Positions 26,115-39,774 of a stretch of DNA of 50,367 bases are shown one piece after another (positions within the stretch are counted from its first letter, which is position 1; every line of letters starts with the position of its first letter). Origin of the DNA: Anaerobacillus alkalilacustris (lineage in GTDB: Bacteria > Bacillota > Bacilli > Bacillales > Anaerobacillaceae); contig NZ_MLQR01000003.1 in NCBI RefSeq assembly GCF_001866005.1, forward strand, positions 1 to 50,367, written 5' to 3'. The position numbers were made by a program, and so were the translations under genes. Below the pieces are notes generated by a model. It saw nothing but the letters and a program-made list of their open reading frames with translations. It had not been told where the DNA came from and ran no database searches.

Positions 26115-26138
26115 AAGCCGATCACACTAGGTCGGCTT
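26115..26138. terminator. Terminator shared by DUF3231 and MFS genes
   Basis: Stem AAGCCGA/TCGGCTT in the convergent gap. It overlaps the last codons of the MFS gene. T-runs are short on both sides (TTGTTAAATT and CTTTTGATT). Confidence 0.6.
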
Positions 26139-27320
26139 GTTAAATTCATATAAACGAAATTTAAGCATTGATAAAATTCCGAATAAAGGTCCAACGGCAA
26201 GGAATAGAAATACCAACTCCCAACCGATATATGATTGTAATAAAGGAAAAAGTTGAATTGTAATAATGGTTATCATAAAACCGATACACATTTGAAATGT
26301 TAATGCAGTTCCTACGTACTCTATTTCTGCAAAATCTGAAACCGCTGCTGAAAATTGAGCTGAATCAGCAATAACGAAAACACCCCAAATTACTGCGACC
26401 ACCATCGTAAGCCAGATTGCTCTGCCAAATGTAAATCCAATGAGAACAGCACAAAGACCACTGATCCCCATTGATATAATTGTTAAACGAGCTCGGCAAA
26501 TTCTATCAGCAACATAGCCACCGAGAATGCACCCGATAGCCCCGGCAATTCCGATACAAATAAATGAAGCCAAAGCACTAAACCATGGCTTAATCTCGGG
26601 TGAAAATGTCATAAAGCTTGCTGTCATAAAGGCCGGTAGCCATGTCCACATGGCATAAAGCTCCCACATATGACCAAAATAACCGTAGTTTACTAGCATG
26701 ACAGGTCTATTTTGAATTACTTTTTTTAATAATGTAAAGGAAAAGGCAGTTTTGTTCATGGTGTTAGGAGCGTCTCTAACAATCCAACACATGATGATAG
26801 AAGCAAGCATGGCTAGGCTAGAACTACTAATTATAATAAAATGCCAATGAAAGCCTGAGAAAAATACAACGATAAAATGAGGGAGCGCTGAACCAATGGT
26901 TAAGGCAGCGATTAATATGCCAATTGCTAGTCCACGATTTTTCGGAAACCATTGTGTGAGAATTTTTACAGCTATCGGATAAACGCCGGCTAATGTTACA
27001 CCTGTTATAAAACGTAGAACAATACCTACCCATGCTGTTGTTGATAATAAAATCAAGGCATTAATAATTGCCCCTAATAGTGCCGAGAAAGCAAAGATTT
27101 TCTTTGCGTTAAATCGATCAGCTAAACCAAAATATGAACTAAACAGAGCACCAACAATAAAGCCAATGGGAACTGATGAAGTAATAAATGCTTCTGAAAA
27201 CGTACTTAACCCCCAAGCTAATCTTAAATCATGGATAATAACAGAGGCACTGAACCAAAGGCTTAGTGCAAATAATTGAGCTAGAGAGATCCACCATAAT
27301 GCGATCCAACGATAATGCAC
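26127..27320 (-). CDS. MFS transporter
   Basis: About 397 residues with 12 hydrophobic segments. The MFS loop 2-3 motif is present as GLADRFNAKK and repeated in the second half as GGYVADRICRAR. WFSASVIIHDLRLAWGLS in the first helix region and RFITGVTLAGVYPIAVKI resemble anion or cyanate-type MFS members, but the substrate is not deducible. A GTG at 27320 has AAGGAG at 7-base spacing; an ATG further up at 27353 lacks an RBS. A 9-bp palindrome AAAGAATTA/TAATTCTTT lies upstream at 27382-27401. Confidence 0.85.
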   Translation of the reverse strand: MHYRWIALWWISLAQLFALSLWFSASVIIHDLRLAWGLSTFSEAFITSSVPIGFIVGALFSSYFGLADRFNAKKIFAFSALLGAIINALILLSTTAWVGIVLRFITGVTLAGVYPIAVKILTQWFPKNRGLAIGILIAALTIGSALPHFIVVFFSGFHWHFIIISSSSLAMLASIIMCWIVRDAPNTMNKTAFSFTLLKKVIQNRPVMLVNYGYFGHMWELYAMWTWLPAFMTASFMTFSPEIKPWFSALASFICIGIAGAIGCILGGYVADRICRARLTIISMGISGLCAVLIGFTFGRAIWLTMVVAVIWGVFVIADSAQFSAAVSDFAEIEYVGTALTFQMCIGFMITIITIQLFPLLQSYIGWELVFLFLAVGPLFGILSMLKFRLYEFNKPT

Positions 27321-27415
27321 ATACATTCTCCTTAATTTTGATAAAAATATCATAACATACTTTTTTTCAATTCATAAAGTTAAAGAATTACATAATTCTT
27401 TATTTAGAGTTGTTG

Positions 27416-27725: not shown

Positions 27726-29036
27726 ATGCATAATGAAATGACAGATTTTCCAAAGCGATTTTATCAAAGGTTACTATTAGATTATGATCATAAGTTAAAT
27801 GTTGAAGGAATTAATGGTAAGCGTCTTGCTGAGCGTTTAGCCAAATTAGCTGGAATTGGTTTAACTCCTAACAACGGTTCAAGTAGAATGGGTTTTTCTG
27901 AAGAAGAACGAAAAGCAAAGAAACTTGTTAAAGAATGGATGAAAGAAGCTGGCTTAGAAGTTCGTGAAGACGGAGCTGGCAATGTTTTTGGACGTTTAGA
28001 AGGAAAAGAGAATGATTCGCCTGTTGTGATGTCTGGATCTCACCTTGACACTGTACCTAATGGCGGCCACTTTGATGGTACTCTTGGTGTTCTACTTGCC
28101 TTAGAGGTAGTAGCAGCTTGGAAAGAAAAGGGCTACCAACCAACGAAACCTTATGAAGTAGTCATTTTCACTGATGAAGAAGGATCTCGGTTCAATGGTG
28201 GATTAAGTGGTAGTGGAGCAATGGTGGGAGAGGTGATTCGTGAGGAGCAGCTAAAACTAATTGATGTTTTTGGAAATTCATTTGAACAAGTACTCGAAGA
28301 AGCTGGCTTAACAGTTGATGGTTATTTATCAGCAAAACGTAATTTGAAGGAAATTGCAGCCTTTGTTGAAGTTCATATTGAACAAGGAAAACAATTAGAA
28401 AAGGAAAATTTACCTGTAGGCGTTGTAACAGGAATAGCAGGACCATGTTGGATAGAAGTATCGTTTTTAGGGATTGCAGGTCATGCTGGAAATACACCAA
28501 TGAATGATCGATCAGACGCTTTAACTGCAGCGAGCCAATTTATCTTACAAGTAGAAACGTTACCGAGTAAGGTTAGTCCTTCAGCAGTAGCAACTGTTGG
28601 CAAAGTTCATGTACACCCGAATGGAGTGAATGTAATTCCAGGTAAAGTAACTCTTTGTGTTGACATTCGGGATATACATAAAGAGACACGAGATCTTCTG
28701 GTAGATAAAATTACTGAATCAGCAAAACAGGTAGCAAGTGATCGAGGAATATCAGTAGAAATAACTGAGAATTTTCGAATTACACCTGTGCCAATTAGCA
28801 TTCAAATGCAAGGGAAAGTTATGAAAGCTGTTGAAAATCATGTGAGGTCATCCCATTTATCACCTAGTGGAGCAGGGCATGATGCAATGATTGTTGGCCG
28901 CCACCTCCCTATTGCCATGGTGTTTGTGCGGAGCAAAGGTGGTATTAGCCATAATCCAATGGAATGGACATCATTAAATGATTGTGTAATAGCGGCTCGT
29001 GTATTAAAAGATTTAGTTGAAGACCTTACGATGTAG
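27726..29036 (+). CDS. Zn-dependent amidohydrolase (N-carbamoylase/allantoate type)
   Basis: A 436-residue M20-family enzyme of the HyuC/AllC group. Metal site motifs: SGSHLDTVPNGGHFDGTLG, FTDEEGSRF, VEVHIEQGKQLE and SGAGHDAMI. Substrate-binding GIAGHAGNTPMNDRSDAL is typical. Members hydrolyse N-carbamoyl-L-amino acids, allantoate or ureidoglycolate, releasing ammonia. Without hydantoinase or purine genes beside it, the substrate stays open. ATG after AAAGGAGAG. Single gene with terminator. Confidence 0.9.
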   Translation: MHNEMTDFPKRFYQRLLLDYDHKLNVEGINGKRLAERLAKLAGIGLTPNNGSSRMGFSEEERKAKKLVKEWMKEAGLEVREDGAGNVFGRLEGKENDSPVVMSGSHLDTVPNGGHFDGTLGVLLALEVVAAWKEKGYQPTKPYEVVIFTDEEGSRFNGGLSGSGAMVGEVIREEQLKLIDVFGNSFEQVLEEAGLTVDGYLSAKRNLKEIAAFVEVHIEQGKQLEKENLPVGVVTGIAGPCWIEVSFLGIAGHAGNTPMNDRSDALTAASQFILQVETLPSKVSPSAVATVGKVHVHPNGVNVIPGKVTLCVDIRDIHKETRDLLVDKITESAKQVASDRGISVEITENFRITPVPISIQMQGKVMKAVENHVRSSHLSPSGAGHDAMIVGRHLPIAMVFVRSKGGISHNPMEWTSLNDCVIAARVLKDLVEDLTM

Positions 29037-30506: not shown

Positions 30507-32174
30507 GTGGGATTAACTGTTAGGGATATTGTCCAAATGTCAATTATGCAAACAGCTAAAATAAGGTGTGGGAAATCATTTTTAGATAAGAAAGTGGTTG
30601 AGTGGGTAACAGTGATTGAACTTCCGGTAGAAAATTTCGTGAAAAAAAACGAACTTGTATTAAGCACTGGTATCGGTTGTGAGGACGATCCAAACTTATT
30701 GGAACAATTTGTTAAAGATATTATTGATTCTGAGGCTTCTGTCTTAGGATTAGCCACAGGAAGATATATTTATGATATTCCAGACCAAGTATTGGAATTA
30801 GCGAAAAAACATCAATTTATCATTCTTGAAATTCCATGGGAGATTAGATTTGGAGATATACTAAAAATAGTTTTAGAGAAAATAAATCAAGATAAGCAAG
30901 GAGAACGACAGAAAGCAGAAACTGTCAGACAAGAACTAATCAACTGTGTTCTTCACGGGAAAAGTTTACAAGATATAGCTAATTTACTTTATAAATATAC
31001 AAAAATTCCAGTTGCGATCACAGATCAAACTCAAACAATTAGAGCAGAACGTCATTTTGATAAAAAGTTAATACAAGTTTTTTTCGAAAAAGAACTAGGG
31101 CAACTTCAGCAAATTCCTCATTTAAACATTTTATTTAGTGAACATCCACTTTATCATTTCATGGAAGAATATATGGTTAATGATCAAATGTGCTTCCAAC
31201 TCTCCATTTTAAACAATCAAAAAAGTCAAGGAAGTTTATTTATTCAGTTAGAGGATAGGGAACAGTTAACATGGTTTGTTATGAATGTGCTTGAACACGC
31301 CTTAACTGCTTGTGCACTTTATTTTGTTAAGGAAAATGCGGTAGAAATGACGAAAATTCGTTTAAATGATAATTTTATATTAAATTTGGCAAAAACGAAG
31401 GGAGTAGTGACAAGTCAAATTATTTCAAAAGCACAGTTACTCGGACATGATTTAACTCGTCCTTATATATGTATTGTTGGTGAAGTCTCTCTTAAAGAAG
31501 TTAAAAATAAACGTAAGGTTCAACAGGAAGTCAAATCTCTTCAAAGTTTAAATTATTACTTGCAAAAGGAAATTACTAATGCAGCTAAATTACTGCACAG
31601 ACGTAATATGATAACGTTTGAGGATGGTGAAGTCATTGTTTTTTTAGAAGCCGATCATCATCCATATATGGAAACAGCTAACCAATTTTTAGATATAATA
31701 GAACGAAGGTTATATGAATTATTAACAGGGGTTGTATTATCGTGGGGGATCGCTACACATAAAGATGGACATTATGCCTTCCATGAAAGCTATAAAGAAG
31801 CCAGTACTGCACTTGATATTGGCAAGCGACAGAAAGACGTTGGACAGCGTACATTTTTTAGTGATACGAAAATTAATCGATTGTTAATGGCTATTTCCAA
31901 AGATGATGAAATAGCTGAAATTGTGAAAACTACAATACAACCATTGCTTGACTATGATCGCAAAAGGCAAACTGATTTAATTTATACATTTATGATTTAT
32001 AACAAATACAAAGGTAATGTAAGTCAAACTGCAAGGGTCTTAAATTTACATCGTCAATCTTTGTTACATCGATTAAGAAATATCGAGTCTCTAACTCAAT
32101 TGTCATTAGTAGATTCTGATGATTTGTTTTTATTAGAGCTAAGTGTTCGCCTCTGGATGTTAAAGGAAATATAA
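30507..32174 (+). CDS. PucR-family transcriptional regulator
   Basis: A 555-residue regulator. The N-terminal PucR domain (residues 1-125, TVRDIVQM...VLSTGIG...LGLATGRYI) is a ligand-sensing domain. A GAF/GGDEF-like middle follows. The C-terminal HTH (about 490-550) has YNKYKGNVSQTARVLNLHRQ and LLHRLRNIESL, the PucR/CdaR helix-turn-helix. GTG start after GGTGAGGTG. It lies upstream of, and in line with, the ectoine-type operon, with a terminator between. I infer that it controls that operon, where proteobacteria use EnuR instead. PucR itself activates purine catabolism genes in B. subtilis. Confidence 0.88.
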   Translation: MGLTVRDIVQMSIMQTAKIRCGKSFLDKKVVEWVTVIELPVENFVKKNELVLSTGIGCEDDPNLLEQFVKDIIDSEASVLGLATGRYIYDIPDQVLELAKKHQFIILEIPWEIRFGDILKIVLEKINQDKQGERQKAETVRQELINCVLHGKSLQDIANLLYKYTKIPVAITDQTQTIRAERHFDKKLIQVFFEKELGQLQQIPHLNILFSEHPLYHFMEEYMVNDQMCFQLSILNNQKSQGSLFIQLEDREQLTWFVMNVLEHALTACALYFVKENAVEMTKIRLNDNFILNLAKTKGVVTSQIISKAQLLGHDLTRPYICIVGEVSLKEVKNKRKVQQEVKSLQSLNYYLQKEITNAAKLLHRRNMITFEDGEVIVFLEADHHPYMETANQFLDIIERRLYELLTGVVLSWGIATHKDGHYAFHESYKEASTALDIGKRQKDVGQRTFFSDTKINRLLMAISKDDEIAEIVKTTIQPLLDYDRKRQTDLIYTFMIYNKYKGNVSQTARVLNLHRQSLLHRLRNIESLTQLSLVDSDDLFLLELSVRLWMLKEI

Positions 32175-32215
32175 GGTGTATGCTACGAAGCTTGGTAGCT
32201 ATACCTTATTTTTTT
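32171..32215 (+). terminator. Terminator after the PucR-type gene
   Basis: Stem ATAAGGTGTATGCTAC/GTAGCTATACCTTAT with small bulges, followed by TTTTTTT. Confidence 0.85.
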
Positions 32216-32372
32216 GAGATAAAGTTATATTTCACTTGTTCGTCATTTTTCGTAGGAAATCTTACATTGTCTAACTATTTTGTATAAAATCATTCGTCCA
32301 AATTTCATACAATTTTAACATTCCGTATAAACCAAGAAATTAATATGATGATAGTAACAAATAACCAACATT

Positions 32373-32399
32373 TTTACACTATCGAGAAGTAAGTATAAT
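32373..32399 (+). promoter_or_regulatory. Candidate promoter of the ectoine-type operon
   Basis: -10 TATAAT at 32394-32399 with TTTACA at 32373-32378, spacer only 15 bp, so probably activator-dependent. It lies 55 bp before the first gene. Confidence 0.4.
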
Positions 32400-32454
32400 T
32401 TTTCTTCAGATGGTAGTTTAGCAAGGTTTTCTATTAACACAAGGAGGGGATCCG

Positions 32455-33663
32455 ATGCTTCCATTTGATATATCAGAATATCAAAACCGTTTAAGTGAGA
32501 CGAAGCAGCTTATGGCCCAGCGAGGAATTGAGGTTTTACTTGTTACGGATCCTGCAAATATTAATTATCTTTCTGGTTATGATGCTTGGTCCTTTTATGT
32601 GCATCAGATGCTAATGATTATTATAGATGAGGCTCAACCAATTTGGATTGGGAGAAATCAGGATGGTAATGGAGCCAAAAAAACAACGTGGCTATCTTCT
32701 GAAAATGTCATTGGTTATCCAGATTACTACGTTCACTCAACTATCCATCATCCAATGGATTTTATTGCCGATATTTTAAGGGGAATAGGGCATGGCAAAC
32801 GCTATATCGGAGTGGAAATGGATAATTATTATTTTTCGGCAAAGGCATATGCGCAACTGAGTAAGCATCTATGTTATGCAACGTTTAAAGATGCAGGGTT
32901 ACTAGTAAACTTCGTTCGACTAGTGAAGTCAGATCAAGAGATTGAATATATGAAGCGTGCAGGAAAAATTGCTGATCAAGCGATGAAAAATGGAGTTGAA
33001 TATGTACGTACTGGTTTAAGAGAATGTGATGCAGCTGCGAAGATCTATCAATCAATAATAGCTGGTACAGATGAGTATGGTGGGGATTATCCAGCGATTG
33101 CACCATTGTTACCCTCAGGGGAGAACACATCGAGTCCTCATTTAACGTGGACTGATCGTATGTTTAAAGAGGGAGATGAAGTTATCATTGAATTAGCAGG
33201 CTGTTATAAACGATATCATGTCCCACTCGCACGAACCATTACAATTGGAACTCCATCAGAAGAATTAAAGCGACTGTCTCCTATAGTTATCGAGGGTCTA
33301 AATGAAGTATTAGAAGCAGTCAAACCTGGTTTAACATGTGGTGAACTTGAGAGTGCTTGGTGTAAAAGTCTTAAGAAACATGGAATTGAAAAAGAATCAC
33401 GTTTAGGATATTCGGTAGGTTTAAATTATCCACCAGATTGGGGAGAGCATACGGCTAGTATTAGAAATGGCGATCTAACCATCTTAAAGCCGAATATGAC
33501 GTTCCACCTCATACCAGGACTTTGGTTTGATAATTATGGCATAGAGATTAGTGAAACGTTCAGAGTAACAGAAAAAGGGTGTGAAACGTTTACGACGTTT
33601 CCACGCCAATTAATCCTACAGGATCCTTTTTCATATACGAACCAAGATGGGAAAATTAGCTAA
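32455..33663 (+). CDS. doeA: Ectoine hydrolase-like M24 protein (DoeA/EutD)
   Basis: A 402-residue creatinase/aminopeptidase P-fold protein. Sequence agrees with DoeA of Halomonas as I know it: VTDPANINYLSGYDAWSFYV (30-49), VEMDNYYFSAKAY (120-132), GDYPAIAPLLPSG (210-222), SPHLTW, AGCYKRYHVPLART (248-261), YPPDWGE and FPRQL. The metal ligands of M24 peptidases are absent, as in creatinase, which fits ring hydrolysis rather than peptide cleavage. DoeA opens ectoine to N-acetyl-2,4-diaminobutyrate. ATG after AAGGAGGGG. First gene of a five-gene operon. Confidence 0.85.
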   Translation: MLPFDISEYQNRLSETKQLMAQRGIEVLLVTDPANINYLSGYDAWSFYVHQMLMIIIDEAQPIWIGRNQDGNGAKKTTWLSSENVIGYPDYYVHSTIHHPMDFIADILRGIGHGKRYIGVEMDNYYFSAKAYAQLSKHLCYATFKDAGLLVNFVRLVKSDQEIEYMKRAGKIADQAMKNGVEYVRTGLRECDAAAKIYQSIIAGTDEYGGDYPAIAPLLPSGENTSSPHLTWTDRMFKEGDEVIIELAGCYKRYHVPLARTITIGTPSEELKRLSPIVIEGLNEVLEAVKPGLTCGELESAWCKSLKKHGIEKESRLGYSVGLNYPPDWGEHTASIRNGDLTILKPNMTFHLIPGLWFDNYGIEISETFRVTEKGCETFTTFPRQLILQDPFSYTNQDGKIS

Positions 33664-33670
33664 GACATCC

Positions 33671-33704
33671 TTTTGCCTGTTAGTACTTTTATTAACAGGC
33701 AAAA
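33671..33704 (+). other. Intercistronic hairpin in the operon
   Basis: Perfect 12-bp stem TTTTGCCTGTTA/TAACAGGCAAAA with a 10-base loop, between the first and second genes. No T-run follows, so it is more likely an RNA-stability or processing element than a full terminator. Confidence 0.65.
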
Positions 33705-33729
33705 TCGTTCATTTAAGGAGGGTTTCTAT

Positions 33730-34917
33730 ATGAAGAAAACAAATATTGGTACTGAGGTCGTATGGGCGGGTGAGCGTGACTATCTTGCTTTTGGAGCAAC
33801 CCAAGTTCCTGTCGTTCATAGTGTATCTTTTGGCTATGACGATATGGATGAATGGTATGAAGTGGCAATTGGAAATAAGAAAGGCCATATTTATGGCAGA
33901 AATACCAATCCAACCGTTCAAGCTTTTGAAGAAAAGATTCGAATATTAGAAGGAGCAGAGGCTGCTACTAGTTTTTCAACTGGTATGGCTGCGATTAGTA
34001 ATACGTTAAGTACATTTTTATATCCAGGTGACCGTGTTGTATCAATAAAAGATACTTATGGAGGGACAAATAAAATATTTACAGAATTCTTACCGAAACA
34101 AAAAGTCGATGTAACCTTATGCGAAACCGGTAATCATGAAGAAATAGAGGATGAGATTGCCAAAGGTTGTAACGTTGTTTATATTGAATCGCCAACTAAT
34201 CCAACAGTGAAAATTACTGATATTTACCGTATTACAAAAGCAGCCAAAAAACAAAATGCACTGGTTATTGTTGATAATACGTTTGCCACGCCAATCAACC
34301 AACAACCTATAAAACTTGGTGTTGATCTTGTTATTCATAGTGCAACAAAGTTTTTAGGTGGGCATGCTGACGCTTTAGGTGGTGCAGTCTGTGGCGAAAA
34401 AGAATTAGTTGAAGCGATTTATCATTACCGAGAAATAAATGGGGCGACACTTGATCCGATGGCCGCTTATTTATTGCTTCGTGGTATGAAGACACTTTCT
34501 TTAAGAATTAATAGACAAAATGAAAATGCTATGGCCATTGCAAAATATTTGCAAACAGTAGATATGGTGGAAGCTGTGTTTTATCCAGGACTAATTGATC
34601 ATCCAGGCCATGAAATAGCGAAAAAACAAATGTCTAATTTTGGTGGAATGTTAAGTTTTGCAGTAAAAGGTGGCGTAGATACAGTTAGGCATTTATTACC
34701 GAAATTAAAATACGCAAATCGGGCAGCAAACCTAGGTGCTGTTGAAACAATAGTTGGTCCATCTAGAACGACAAGTCATGTAGAATGTACCCCAGAAGAA
34801 CGTGCAGCAATGGGGATCCCAGAAGGGCTAATTCGTTATTCAGCAGGAATTGAAGACATTGACGATCTTATTTATGATCTGAAGCAAGCATTTGATGCCC
34901 TACCAAAAGAGAGTTGA
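33730..34917 (+). CDS. Cystathionine gamma-synthase-family PLP enzyme
   Basis: A 395-residue fold-type I PLP enzyme of the Cys/Met metabolism family. PLP lysine Lys207 in HSATKFLGGH, Asp182 in VDNTFATP, SFSTGMAAIS (82-91), YGRNTNPTVQAFE and the C-terminal LIRYSAGIED are all present. The family performs gamma-elimination or gamma-replacement on amino acids with a leaving group at C4. In this operon the logical substrate is 2,4-diaminobutyrate or homoserine, not cystathionine; that is inference. Start at 33730 chosen for AAGGAGGG; the frame is open upstream to 33673. The next gene follows after 6 bp. Confidence 0.88.
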   Translation: MKKTNIGTEVVWAGERDYLAFGATQVPVVHSVSFGYDDMDEWYEVAIGNKKGHIYGRNTNPTVQAFEEKIRILEGAEAATSFSTGMAAISNTLSTFLYPGDRVVSIKDTYGGTNKIFTEFLPKQKVDVTLCETGNHEEIEDEIAKGCNVVYIESPTNPTVKITDIYRITKAAKKQNALVIVDNTFATPINQQPIKLGVDLVIHSATKFLGGHADALGGAVCGEKELVEAIYHYREINGATLDPMAAYLLLRGMKTLSLRINRQNENAMAIAKYLQTVDMVEAVFYPGLIDHPGHEIAKKQMSNFGGMLSFAVKGGVDTVRHLLPKLKYANRAANLGAVETIVGPSRTTSHVECTPEERAAMGIPEGLIRYSAGIEDIDDLIYDLKQAFDALPKES

Positions 34918-34923
34918 TCACCT

Positions 34924-36114
34924 TTGAATATAGCAACGAAAGCAGAAAGTCTTAAACAAGAACTTATTAATTGGCGTCGTCATTTGCATAGTAACCCAGA
35001 ACTAAGTTTTCAAGAAGTTAAAACGAGTGCGTATATTTTGGAACAGCTTAAAGCCATAGGGTTTACACAGTTTCATACTGGGATTGGTGGACACGGTATA
35101 GTAGCTACAATAAGTGGAAAAAAAGGGCCAGTCATCGGACTACGTGCAGATATGGATGCCCTACCAATTCAAGAAGAAACGGGATTAGAATATGCATCAA
35201 CTAATCATGGAGTGATGCATGCTTGCGGCCATGATGCTCATTCAGCGATGTTATTAGGTGCAGCAAAACTATTAAAAGAAGATGCAGATGCCGGATTGCT
35301 AAATGGTACGGTGAAACTAATTTTTCAACCAGCTGAAGAAAATACTGATGAACAAGGCCTTACAGGTGCCCCACACCTTTTACGATCAGGAGTCATTGAT
35401 GATGTGAAAGCAGCTATTGCATTGCATGTTTGTCCTTGGAGAAAAACAGGTGAATTACAGGTGAACAAAGGGCCAAGTATGGCTAACATCGACAATTTTA
35501 TGCTAACAATTAAAGGAGTAGGTGGACACGGTGGGTATCCACACCAAGGAAAAGATCCTCTCTGGATGGCAAGTTTCGTTCTACAAGGAATTTATAGTTT
35601 AACAAGTAGACGTGTGAACCCACTAGACGTAGCGGTAATAAGTGTAGGGGAAATACATGGTGGCACAACTGCTAATATAATTCCTAATCGTGTACAGATA
35701 AGAGGAACGATCCGTTCTTATAAAAAAGAAGTCCGACAACAGTTAATAGATGAATTGAAAATCGTAGCTAGCATCGTAGAAAGTTTAGGTGGTAGCTACG
35801 AACTTAAAATTGAACATGGTGAACCAGCTCTATACAATGATGAAAAGATTACAGAGGTTGTGAAACGAACAGCTAAAATTTTATATCCTTCAATAAACAT
35901 TTTGGAAGAGCCTTTTGGTTTGGGTGGCGAGGATTTTAGTTTTATTGCTGAGAAAATTCCTAGTATGATGTTTTTTTTAGGATGTGGGTTAAGAGGCGAG
36001 CTTCATTCGCCCTATTTTCAATTAGACGAAGATGCTCTTCCAGTCGGGACAGCATTACTAACGAAATGCGCTCAAAATCTATTACTCTATATTGGAGGTG
36101 AACAACACCTATGA
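34924..36114 (+). CDS. M20-family amidohydrolase, probable N-acetyl-diaminobutyrate deacetylase
   Basis: A 396-residue M20D metallohydrolase. Motifs: RRHLHSNPELSF, RADMDALPIQEETG, MHACGHDAHSAML (His99, Cys101, His103), FQPAEENTDEQG and LGGEDFSFIAEKIPS. The group removes acyl groups from amino acids (hippurate, N-acetyl-diaminopimelate). In this operon it would do the job of DoeB, deacetylating N-acetyl-2,4-diaminobutyrate; DoeB itself is from the unrelated AstE/AspA family. TTG start, weak RBS (AAAGAGAG), probably coupled to the gene before it. Its end overlaps the next gene by 4 bases. Confidence 0.87.
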   Translation: MNIATKAESLKQELINWRRHLHSNPELSFQEVKTSAYILEQLKAIGFTQFHTGIGGHGIVATISGKKGPVIGLRADMDALPIQEETGLEYASTNHGVMHACGHDAHSAMLLGAAKLLKEDADAGLLNGTVKLIFQPAEENTDEQGLTGAPHLLRSGVIDDVKAAIALHVCPWRKTGELQVNKGPSMANIDNFMLTIKGVGGHGGYPHQGKDPLWMASFVLQGIYSLTSRRVNPLDVAVISVGEIHGGTTANIIPNRVQIRGTIRSYKKEVRQQLIDELKIVASIVESLGGSYELKIEHGEPALYNDEKITEVVKRTAKILYPSINILEEPFGLGGEDFSFIAEKIPSMMFFLGCGLRGELHSPYFQLDEDALPVGTALLTKCAQNLLLYIGGEQHL

Positions 36115-37145
36115 ATATAGCATTTATAGGATTTGGCGGAGTCGGTCAGGCGTTAGCTAAGTTATTAGTAGAAGAAAAGAAGAAACTAGAAAAATTGTAT
36201 AGTTTACAACCAGTCGTAGTATCGGTTTGTGACAAAAAAAAAGGTTCGGTTTATCATCCAGAGGGATTAAATATTGAAAAAGTATTACAAGTAGTCAATG
36301 ATACCGGAAATGTTGAAAACTATCCAAATACCCCTGGTCTTATAAAAGGCTGGGACAGTATGAAAACGATTAAAAATTCAAATGCTGATATGATTGTTGA
36401 GGTAACCTATACTGATGTAAAAACAGGACAGCCAGCTATTGACCATTGTCGAACCGCTTTTAAACAGAAAAAAAGTGTCGTTACGACTAATAAGGGCCCT
36501 GTTGCAATCGCATACAAGGAGCTTTCTGATTTAGCAAAAAAGAACGATGTTTTCTTTGGTTTTGAAGGAACAGTTATGAGTGGAACTCCCGCACTTAGAA
36601 TGCCTACCGTGACATTAGCTGGAAATGATATTTCAGAAATAAAAGGAATTCTAAATGGAACGACTAACTTTATTTTAACGGAAATGGAACAAGGACATTC
36701 TTATGAAGATTCACTACTAAAAGCGCAAAAATTAGGGTATGCAGAAGCAGATCCAACTTCTGATGTCCAAGGCTATGACGCTCGTTATAAAGCAGTGATA
36801 TTAGCTAATTATATTATGGGGGGAGAAATAGTTACTGAAGATGTAACGTGTATGGGAATAACCGATTTAAACGAAAAAATGGTTCAAGAAGCTCTACGCA
36901 AGAAAAAGAAGTGGAAGTTACTTGCTCGAATTAAAAAAGAAAATGGGAATGTAATAGCGAGTGTAAAACCTGAACTGTTAGATGAAAATGACCCATTAGC
37001 AAGTGTGACAGGTGCGACAAATGCAATTATGTATGATTGTGATTTAGCTGGTCCGATATTTTTATCGGGAGCCGGAGCAGGTCTAGTAGAGACAGGTTAT
37101 TCTTTGTTAATTGATATCATTAATTACCAATGGCAATACAAATAA
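36111..37145 (+). CDS. Homoserine dehydrogenase without ACT domain
   Basis: A 344-residue NAD(P)-dependent enzyme. Rossmann motif IGFGGVGQA (residues 6-14), VTTNKGPVA, GTVMSGTPALR, GILNGTTNFIL and the catalytic stretch GYAEADPTSDVQGYDARYKA. The roughly 80-residue C-terminal ACT domain that gives threonine feedback in the biosynthetic Hom of Bacillus is missing. It links aspartate semialdehyde and homoserine. In a catabolic operon an unregulated form makes sense as an outlet for aspartate semialdehyde. ATGA overlap with the amidohydrolase gene, RBS GGAGGTG inside it. Confidence 0.88.
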   Translation: MNIAFIGFGGVGQALAKLLVEEKKKLEKLYSLQPVVVSVCDKKKGSVYHPEGLNIEKVLQVVNDTGNVENYPNTPGLIKGWDSMKTIKNSNADMIVEVTYTDVKTGQPAIDHCRTAFKQKKSVVTTNKGPVAIAYKELSDLAKKNDVFFGFEGTVMSGTPALRMPTVTLAGNDISEIKGILNGTTNFILTEMEQGHSYEDSLLKAQKLGYAEADPTSDVQGYDARYKAVILANYIMGGEIVTEDVTCMGITDLNEKMVQEALRKKKKWKLLARIKKENGNVIASVKPELLDENDPLASVTGATNAIMYDCDLAGPIFLSGAGAGLVETGYSLLIDIINYQWQYK

Positions 37146-37164
37146 ATGGGGAAGGTGGTGTGTG

Positions 37165-38609
37165 ATGCGGATGAAAATCCAATCACGGAAAATGCTTCTT
37201 GCAGGTGACTGGGTCTATTCGAATCAGTCGTTTGATGTCATAGATCCCCAAGATAATAAAATTATTGGAAAGTCCCATTAGCAACAAAGAAAGAGATGGT
37301 TAGTCCAATTGAAAAAGGTGCTGAAGCGTTTAGAAATTTTAAAAAATGGCCTACTCATAAACGAATAGAGGTACTCAATAGAGCGGCAGCCTTTATTGAA
37401 AAACATGCTGAGGAATATGCATATACAATAAGTTTAGAAGGTAGTAAAACAATAAGCGAAGCTAGAAGTGAAGTTCATCGCGCGATTCAAACTATTCTAC
37501 TAAGTGCTGAAGAAGCTAGACGAATAAATGGTGAAACAATAAACTTTGACCAGAGAGAAGGAAGTGAAAATCGATTAGGGTATTATTATCGCTTTCCTAT
37601 TGGGGTGGTCGGTGCAATCACTCCATTTAACGATCCTCTAAATCTCGTCGCACATAAAATAGGTCCAGCACTTGCATCAGGAAATGCTATCGTTGTAAAG
37701 CCAGCATCAGTAACACCAATAAGTGCTTTATTACTTGCCGAAGCATTTACCCAATCAGGTTTACCAAAGGGTTATCTATCTGTAATTACAGGTTCGGGTC
37801 GTGACATAGGTGAAACGCTTGTACGCCATCCATCTGTAAAGATGATATCTTTTACTGGAGGGTTAGAAGTTGGCAAAAAAATTATCCGTCAAGCAGAGCT
37901 TAAGAAGATAAATATGGAGTTAGGCTCTAACTCTCCAGTTATAATATTAAACGACGCAAATCTTGAAAAAGCCGTGAGTTCATGTGTTTCGGGTGCTTTT
38001 TCGGCAGTTGGACAGAATTGTATAGGTGTTCAACGTATTTTTGTTGAGAAACAAATTTTTGATAGCTTTTTAAAGAAATTTATTGAAGAAACAGCCTTGC
38101 TCAGGATTGGAAATAAAATGGATGAACAAACAAATGTTGGTCCGATGATTACTGAAAGAGAAGCCAAACGAGTTGAATTGTGGGTAAATGAAGCTTTAGA
38201 TGAAGGAGCACAGCTTAAATTAGGTGGAAAAAGGTACGGTAGCTTTTACGAACCTACAATTTTAACGGAAGTTCCAGCAACAGCCAAAATAGCGAAAGAA
38301 GAAATTTTTGGTCCAGTAGTAATGGTTACAGCTGTTGAAAGTTTGGAAGAAGCAATTGAAAAGTCTAATGCTGTAAATTTTGGTCTCCAAGCAGGAATTT
38401 TTACTTCTAACCTAGATAAGGCTTTCTTTACAATAAAGAACTTGCAAGTAGGCGGTGTGTTGGTAAACGACAGTAGTGATTATCGTATTGACGCCATGCC
38501 TTTCGGGGGGATAAAGGGATCAGGTTTAGGTCGAGAAGGGGTAAGGTATGCAATTGAAGCAATGACAGAGCCGAAAGTAGTATGCTTTAACTTGAGTAAA
38601 AATAAATAA
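37165..38609 (+). pseudogene. Aldehyde dehydrogenase, split by a one-base frameshift
   Basis: The ATG at 37165 (RBS AAGGTGG) opens a frame MKIQSRKMLLAGDWVYSNQS...DPQDNKIIGK that hits TAG at 37279. The rest, VPLATKKEMVSPIEKG to the stop at 38609, is in another frame. Adding one A to the AAA at 37269-37271 would join them as IIGKVPLATKK. The remainder is a complete NAD(P)-dependent aldehyde dehydrogenase: ITPFNDPLNLVAHK, SFTGGLEVGKKI, MELGSN (Glu) and GQNCIGVQR (catalytic Cys). In context it could oxidise aspartate semialdehyde to aspartate, the DoeC step. It is either a real mutation or a homopolymer sequencing error. Confidence 0.85.
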
Positions 38610-38624
38610 GTTATATTCGGTAGC

Positions 38625-38665
38625 AGAAAAGAAAGGAGTTGAAAGATTTTCTCCTTTCTTTCGTT
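38625..38665 (+). terminator. Terminator of the ectoine-type operon
   Basis: Stem GAAAGAAAGGAG-like arm with CTCCTTTCTTTC (38651-38662), loop TTGAAAGATTTT; short T content after it. Confidence 0.65.
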
Positions 38666-39515: not shown

Positions 39516-39547
39516 AGAAAGACGCCCAAAGGGCGTCTTTCTTGCGT
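39515..39547 (+). terminator. Terminator after the nitroreductase
   Basis: Perfect 13-bp stem AAGAAAGACGCCC/GGGCGTCTTTCTT with loop AAA. T-rich right arm; works in either direction in principle. Confidence 0.85.
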
Positions 39548-39774
39548 CTTGCGGCGAGAGACTGCACTCCACATAGTGCATTACCATAAAGGTGTGTCAA
39601 TCTCGACTTATGCAACTTGAGCTCATCGCTTGTTTAATATAACACCATTACACAATAAATACAATAGGAAAATTTACCACTTTTAATTTATGAGGCAAAA
39701 TCACAATTTTTATGTAATTCAAATACAATAAGTAAGAAGGGCTTTTTACATAGTGGAAAAGGGGGAGAGATACT

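Follow-up and report, generated by a model that had tools for sequence, protein, structure and literature searches.

A PucR-linked operon of Anaerobacillus alkalilacustris is predicted to degrade ectoine with a cystathionine gamma-synthase family enzyme and a homoserine dehydrogenase in place of the transaminase DoeD

What does a homoserine dehydrogenase (HSD) contribute to an operon that otherwise appears devoted to ectoine, and what is made by the pyridoxal phosphate (PLP) enzyme encoded beside it? The question is raised by a stretch of 50,367 nucleotides from Anaerobacillus alkalilacustris (assembly GCF_001866005.1, contig NZ_MLQR01000003.1, positions 1 to 50,367; the whole stretch is hereafter the window), in which six forward-strand genes (30507-38609) form a genuine operon of this salt-loving member of the Bacillaceae, encoding a PucR-family regulator, an M24-fold protein, a PLP enzyme of the cystathionine gamma-synthase (CGS) family, an M20 amidohydrolase, HSD and an aldehyde dehydrogenase (ALDH). 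We propose, with a probability of roughly 0.6, that this PucR-linked operon degrades ectoine to aspartate, and that the CGS-family enzyme makes homoserine from 2,4-diaminobutyrate, which the dedicated HSD would then oxidise. Ectoine as the probable substrate is well supported. A preliminary description of the DNA had suggested an ectoine catabolic operon in which M20 stands for the deacetylase DoeB, a CGS-type enzyme for the transaminase DoeD and PucR for the regulator EnuR, and both homology and gene context in the named relatives support that suggestion.

The nearest solved structures to the M24 protein, in a sequence search of the PDB, are those of DoeA (6twk, 6yo9 and 6twj, 408 bits), followed by a prolidase (120 bits) and creatinase (1chm, 57.7 bits). 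Upon alignment with the Pyrococcus prolidase 1pv9, four of the five residues which we take to be the M24 metal ligands are replaced and one Glu is kept, and DoeA 6twk displays a similar loss, so that the resemblance to DoeA described earlier, missing ligands included, is upheld. The phylogeny called for at that time gives the same answer: a 66-row tree places DoeA-like proteins from Bacilli, haloarchaea and Proteobacteria in one group, from which three M24 peptidases encoded by the A. alkalilacustris genome are separated (100/99, flagged for long branches). The haloarchaeal branch, with 52-55% identity among the matches listed, has other neighbours on the two plasmids inspected (L010 and L011, 55% and 53% identity, against 49-51% for proteobacterial proteins), where amidohydrolase and threonine-dehydratase-like genes lie near the DoeA-like gene and no CGS match was found.

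Across Bacilli, the CGS-family enzyme keeps close company with DoeA-like proteins. As a rule, the best four candidates per genome were scored in our genome surveys; DoeA-like proteins were recognised at >400 bits (genome G311 was included though split in two pieces), CGS-family members at an E-value of at most 1e-150, and counts were made by reading lists. Of 398 Bacilli genomes, including that of A. alkalilacustris, 36 have a DoeA-like protein, 39 the CGS-family enzyme and 34 both, the enzyme being found in 5 of the other 362 (Fisher p 1.8e-41, relatedness ignored). Two genomes have the DoeA-like protein without CGS (G056, G375) and five the reverse (G214, G312, G253, G266 and G351, where G253 is a 6.7-kb contig ending beside CGS-M20). 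In the family of G375 (261 genomes), all 34 with CGS fall within the 46 with a DoeA-like protein, and the enzyme is found in 0 of the 215 others. Gene order was followed in 80 named loci, which were found through CGS as the best 80 of 211 confirmed stretches and are therefore weighted to close relatives. An M24 gene lies near CGS in every one, upstream on the same strand in 79 (32 within 200 bp, 47 at 201-1300 bp). The neighbourhood survey suggested in the preliminary description thus recovers the complete set of M24, CGS, M20, HSD and ALDH in 59 of these relatives; M20 alone is missing from 14, HSD and ALDH are missing from 5, and 2 have M24 and CGS alone. One locus (L091), in a record titled Pseudomonas sp. 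ISL-84, has a Cytobacillus-like ectoine operon, and the title is probably wrong.

The wider context points to ectoine. Two Priestia plasmids carry the order pucR-eutB-pdxS-M24-cyclodeaminase-CGS-M20-HSD-ALDH, in which eutB is annotated as a hydroxyectoine utilisation dehydratase and the cyclodeaminase is EutC-like (in Priestia megaterium ATCC 14581 the operon is on plasmid pBMV_1), and EutB-like and EutC-like genes were counted in 32 and 48 of the 80 named relatives, respectively. On Klebsiella and Pluralibacter plasmids, an aminotransferase-like gene that we read as MocR/EnuR-like, doeA, doeB and a CGS gene (product ~61% identical to that of the window) adjoin ehu genes, HSD being absent from both plasmids viewed; their DoeA groups with that of Rhizobium (100/98, M24 tree), and on these plasmids CGS and DoeA have come together a second time, independently of the Bacilli. 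The genome of A. alkalilacustris itself encodes an ectoine synthase (contig C1; PF06339, 204 bits) behind genes read by eye as ectA and ectB, as well as a second, fuller cluster (contig C27, locus L023, 747-13331), in which M24, EutC-like, CGS, M20, HSD, ALDH and EhuB/C-like genes lie on the strand opposite to EutB and PucR. The EutB of that cluster scores 366.6 bits against TIGR02991, below the cut-off of 413, and the M24 and CGS proteins of the two copies are 62% and 74% identical. The organism would thus be an ectoine producer and probably a consumer in one. The assembly is flagged with 5.92% contamination, and composition was examined for this reason: GC is 35.0% in the window, 37.8% in the C27 piece and 33.7% in the piece with the ectoine synthase, and the tetranucleotide correlation of the window is 0.954 with C27, 0.990 with the synthase piece and 0.960-0.969 with two other Bacillaceae, values that are compatible with one genome without being proof of it.

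What the CGS-family enzyme and HSD may accomplish together can be judged from loci that lack them. Among 109 M24 loci, 86 have CGS and HSD, 8 have CGS without HSD, 15 have neither, and none has HSD without CGS. A class III aminotransferase is present in 0 of the 94 loci with CGS and in 11 of the 15 without it; those 15 have no HSD (0/15) and mostly retain ALDH (13/15), and all 11 aminotransferase loci keep M24, M20 and ALDH. A DoeD- or AT112-type gene was counted in none of the 80 named operons (four loci have weak matches, at 25%, on the opposite strand, which were left out of the count). All 12 DoeA-like, CGS-less genomes of the 261-genome family were examined, and ten of them (L112, L128-L130, L133-L138) have M24, M20, ALDH, a BCCT gene and the class III aminotransferase in that order, with EutC after M24 in L137 and no HSD; PucR is directly upstream in eight, while in L134 and L136 it lies upstream at a distance of ~6.5 kb. 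The remaining two genomes (G531 and G536; L131 and L132) have EutB, M24, EutC, M20, ALDH and Ehu-like genes. One genome, G600, has both types, L140 with CGS and HSD (no M20 or ALDH matches) and L141 with the aminotransferase. A BCCT transporter gene accompanies all the aminotransferase loci but L141, and an alanine-dehydrogenase-like gene (named by eye) follows in L112. Since HSD is lost together with CGS and an aminotransferase is mostly found in their place, it is likely that CGS and HSD jointly do the work of DoeD. If the aminotransferase loci work as DoeD and DoeC do, the pair must jointly yield aspartate semialdehyde, and because the substrate of HSD in the oxidising direction is homoserine, the CGS-family enzyme should produce homoserine. 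That HSD was not found without CGS, although CGS was sometimes found without HSD, is what one would expect if HSD acts after CGS and if homoserine can also be drawn off for the synthesis of threonine and methionine. The order of reactions first put forward, from diaminobutyrate to aspartate semialdehyde and only then to homoserine or aspartate, probably does not hold, for this co-loss and exchange fit homoserine first.

A cluster of apparently the same type is already in print. In the consulted portions of PMC13188858 (April 2026), pucR-eutBCD-atf-abgB-thrA-adh is reported from Bacillota as a putative, tentative ectoine cluster; matched by gene position, our PLP gene is apparently its 'atf', and the window copy is without eutB and eutC. 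In those portions abgB-thrA-adh is shown as of unknown function, thrA is read as reducing the semialdehyde to homoserine, and 'cystathionine' is absent from the main text. The preliminary description's claim of an operon built from non-standard enzymes is therefore partly sustained: M20, CGS and PucR do depart from the doe/eut pattern, but the layout has this published precedent, and NCBIfam already has a model, DoeB2 (NF038260), that matches M20 proteins (230 bits for the window copy and 255 for the C27 copy, short of the cut-off of 550). What is new here is the logic by which CGS and HSD replace DoeD, the cluster itself having been published. Like doeABCD/eutABCDE of Halomonas elongata and Ruegeria pomeroyi, the operon has a DoeA-type first enzyme, a deacetylation and a predicted exit to aspartate through aspartate semialdehyde and ALDH. 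Unlike them, it has no AstE-type DoeB, class III DoeD or MocR-type EnuR, having instead CGS and HSD for the one transaminase, and PucR. The AstE/AspA domain PF04952 of DoeB is absent from the operon's deacetylase candidate and had 0 matches in the genome (assembly 90.85% complete), and the Klebsiella DoeB was matched in 0 of the 80 named loci; the regulator has PucR, GGDEF_2 and HTH_30 domains rather than an aminotransferase-like sensor domain. For H. elongata, PMC3187862 reports, in the sections consulted, that DoeD makes aspartate semialdehyde from diaminobutyrate, that DoeC oxidises the semialdehyde, and that deletion of eutBC left growth on ectoine unimpaired.

The published label invites the reading that the PLP enzyme is a functional aminotransferase which forms aspartate semialdehyde directly, with HSD reducing part of it to homoserine, in keeping with the direction published for thrA (PMC13188858, as consulted), and ALDH oxidising part of it to aspartate. 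The label was given by cluster position, whereas the protein itself belongs to the Cys/Met gamma-elimination and replacement family (Cys_Met_Meta_PP Pfam, 438 bits; NF006097, or PRK08249, of the CGS family, 742.9 bits, above the cut-off of 600) and not to the class III aminotransferases, as DoeD does. Moreover, an aminotransferase would not predict the loss of HSD with CGS, nor that HSD should accompany a class III aminotransferase in 0 of 11 loci, and we regard this reading as improbable.

Family membership and the PLP chemistry that goes with it are shared with methionine gamma-lyase, which also provides the closest solved structures, and the enzyme could in principle convert diaminobutyrate to 2-oxobutyrate and two molecules of ammonia while HSD and ALDH serve other ends, as might suit the loci with CGS but no HSD, namely seven of the 80 named operons and both enterobacterial plasmids inspected. 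We think this unlikely as well. It gives HSD nothing to do in 73 of the 80 named operons, where the gene is present, no 2-oxobutyrate-handling gene was noticed in the loci whose genes were listed, and the YGCT motif of methionine gamma-lyase reads YGGT or YGGS in 95 of 96 M24-linked CGS enzymes. The operon enzyme (YGGT) differs from that family further in its operon context and in its separate branch of the CGS tree, away from the four other strong family members of the genome (100/97, long branches noted).

A third alternative retains homoserine as the product and changes the substrate. N-gamma-acetyl-diaminobutyrate has a free alpha-amino group and is the aza-analogue of O-acetylhomoserine, and its cleavage by the PLP enzyme would give acetamide and homoserine, with M20 only salvaging the alpha isomer. 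M24-CGS is the most constant pair, and H. elongata DoeA yields both acetyl isomers, 2:1 (PMC3187862, sections consulted). In addition, M20 is missing from 16 of the 80 named operons, and an operon-type M20 was not found elsewhere in those 16 genomes, so that deacetylation there needs another enzyme or is skipped, which leaves room for direct gamma-acetyl cleavage. Other M20 proteins are nonetheless present in all 16 (33-41% identity, against 46-65% for the operon M20), most named operons do keep M20, and on the enterobacterial plasmids CGS follows doeB, whose product is diaminobutyrate; on balance the acetamide route is doubtful.

In the pathway that we favour, with free diaminobutyrate as the intermediate, we infer the individual reactions from the genes. 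The M24 protein would open ectoine to N-acetyl-2,4-diaminobutyrate, and removal of acetate by the M20 enzyme would give diaminobutyrate. The PLP enzyme would expel the gamma amino group as ammonia and add water to form homoserine, which HSD would convert to aspartate semialdehyde, and ALDH (its gene broken in the window copy and open in the C27 copy) would yield aspartate. The operon HSD scores 430 bits against NF004912 (cut-off 373) and is distinct from a 423-residue HSD on contig C4 (33% identity across 233 residues). In the canavanine-gamma-lyase operon that Hauth described in 2022, an HSD and an aldehyde dehydrogenase reportedly follow as well. The chemistry of the third step would resemble that reported for canavanine-gamma-lyase, which provides a documented case of PLP-dependent cleavage with homoserine as product (PMC10018355, PMC12508155, each consulted in part); the likeness lies in the gamma-cleavage of a gamma-substituted 2-aminobutyrate, and the leaving group there is hydroxyguanidine, the substrate a plant toxin and the hosts of other phyla. 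In the open-licence PMC literature searched we found no proposal of, or paper on, the homoserine-forming diaminobutyrate activity predicted here.

Several observations, to which the operons without M20 belong, weigh against this pathway. The equilibrium of HSD favours homoserine, and the fourth step therefore needs the pull of ALDH; M24 and CGS are kept with HSD and ALDH missing in 7 of the 80 named operons. The loci of the exchange described above are related and were picked partly for the presence or absence of CGS (the named ones through it, the unnamed partly for lacking it), and the aminotransferase loci form a single clade of the M24 tree (100/100, one change), which implies one replacement event in Bacilli and means that locus-wise p-values overstate the case. 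Among CGS-less loci, L131 and L132 are without HSD and have no recognised aminotransferase nearby, adjoining instead a fumarase/aspartase-superfamily gene, and L111 and L148 have M24 alone. The M24 protein reaches 506.2 bits against TIGR02993, the NCBIfam model of DoeA/EutD, and misses the cut-off of 613, as do all 398 Bacilli genomes and all 261 in the family of G375. From the published side, PMC10203224 (in the parts consulted) detected doeA in every Aquibacillus-group genome it covered but doeB in only two strains, and concluded that ectoine serves there chiefly as an osmolyte rather than as a nutrient. Nine Aquibacillus loci (L026-L028, L030, L033, L037, L039, L048 and L029, the last from an A. 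massiliensis isolate, now Sediminibacillus) all have CGS, M20, HSD and ALDH beside M24, genes that a search for doeB would miss. Finally, Vibrio natriegens with only eutDE-asnC-ssd-atf failed to grow on ectoine (PMC13188858, portions consulted), and gene content alone is therefore no proof of ectoine use.

That the operon acts on canavanine, S-methylmethionine or some other gamma-substituted amino acid, with the DoeA-like protein a divergent hydrolase, would suit the missed DoeA cut-off and the triads described below, but is very improbable given the EutB-like and EutC-like genes of its relatives, the Ehu-like genes of the C27 copy and the enterobacterial DoeA and DoeB that adjoin the same CGS family, neighbours for which canavanine utilisation in particular was set aside.

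The spacing reported in the preliminary description (66, 6 and 19 bp and a 4-bp overlap, with a hairpin in the 66-bp gap) is borne out by re-read coordinates and folding. The CGS-family gene starts at the ATG behind an AAGGAGG-type site, 66 bp past M24, although a mechanical list of open reading frames begins it at TTG 33673; CGS and M20 are 6 bp apart, M20 and HSD overlap by 4 bp, and 19 bp separate HSD from the ATG of ALDH (Table 1). The 13-pair hairpin between M24 and CGS (-22.5 kcal/mol, z -5.0; a scan for terminator-like elements also lists 33671-33704) was considered as a conserved regulatory element and rejected: of 29 relatives whose gap was folded for comparison with the window, few gave a strong fold, and it is thus a local feature. 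A promoter scan gave no signal (30 sites, 32.0 expected), and an Rfam search matched nothing within the operon. ALDH is not the single open frame to 38663 first described; the proteins of four relatives first follow frame 1 (over residues 1-27 to 1-71, depending on the relative) and then frame 3, which places a break near 37269, and the stop at 38609 is 54 bases short of the claimed end. The break may be a true mutation or an assembly error. By its position, PucR is the likely regulator. The operon has no transporter, as stated before, yet the opposite strand has an MFS gene (26127-27353) and the C27 cluster has Ehu-like genes. Outside the operon, an M20 amidase of the hydantoinase/carbamoylase type (27726-29036, forward strand; NF006771, 467.9 bits, cut-off 399) lies upstream of the PucR gene, and a BsrF small RNA match (39518-39629, reverse strand; RF01411, 77.9 bits) directly downstream of a nitroreductase gene.

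Table 1. Features of the operon in the window, with predicted roles and their basis.
Feature	Position	Strand	Basis
PucR-family transcriptional regulator	30507..32174	+	Pfam PucR 104.6 bits, GGDEF_2, HTH_30; PucR gene counted in 62/80 named relatives
DoeA/EutD-like ectoine hydrolase (predicted), M24 fold with most of the customary metal ligands missing	32455..33663	+	PDB match, TIGR02993 score, tree
Intercistronic gap with 13-pair hairpin, terminator-like or processing site	33664..33729	+	Fold and terminator-like scan
CGS-family PLP enzyme, predicted to form homoserine as a 2,4-diaminobutyrate gamma-lyase/hydrolase	33730..34917	+	NF006097, co-occurrence with DoeA-like proteins
M20 amidohydrolase, predicted N-acetyl-diaminobutyrate deacetylase	34924..36114	+	TIGR01891 393 bits; counted in 64/80 named operons
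Dedicated HSD, predicted homoserine to aspartate semialdehyde	36111..37145	+	NF004912; 344 aa
ALDH gene, predicted aspartate-semialdehyde dehydrogenase, frameshifted near 37269	37165..38609	+	Aldedh 507 bits on the 37296-38606 part

The triad CGS-HSD-ALDH is also met with where DoeA is missing. In four loci (L106, L107, L109 and L110) it is near a GntR-type gene (named by eye) and a permease-like gene, with neither M24 nor M20, and these CGS enzymes fall within the M24-linked group of the CGS tree, beside the C27 copy (97/92). The best model for the L106 permease is the S-methylmethionine permease (663.6 bits, missing the cut-off of 716) and the next gene is a homocysteine S-methyltransferase (450.8 bits, cut-off 215), the layout of L107 being nearly identical; in L110 the neighbours are an amino-acid permease, an asparaginase-family gene and a fumarase/aspartase-superfamily gene. 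It is possible that the triads of L106 and L107 (G214 and G312) constitute a route from S-methylmethionine to aspartate that releases dimethyl sulfide. The motif RNTNP, present in all 96 M24-linked enzymes, reads RMTNP or RMGNP in three of the four stand-alone triads and RNSNP in the other (L108, cut by a contig end, has RNTNP), and a residue at this position that might separate the two kinds is suggestive only.

More broadly, we see about an even chance that Bacilli use a CGS-type 2,4-diaminobutyrate gamma-hydrolase, forming homoserine with loss of the terminal amino group or of acetamide from the gamma-acetyl form, and that CGS-HSD-ALDH is a portable module turning several gamma-substituted 2-aminobutyrates (diaminobutyrate derived from ectoine, probably S-methylmethionine and, by analogy, canavanine) into aspartate without transamination, a module that, in the course of evolution, took over from DoeD-like transaminases or gave way to them. 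As a solute, ectoine is widespread in the sea and in soils, and it is also sold commercially. A two-step substitute for DoeD would explain the thrA and adh genes of the published Bacillota cluster, and would suggest that proteins which currently go by the name 'cystathionine gamma-synthase family protein', encoded by many Bacilli and by a number of enterobacterial plasmids, have another function.

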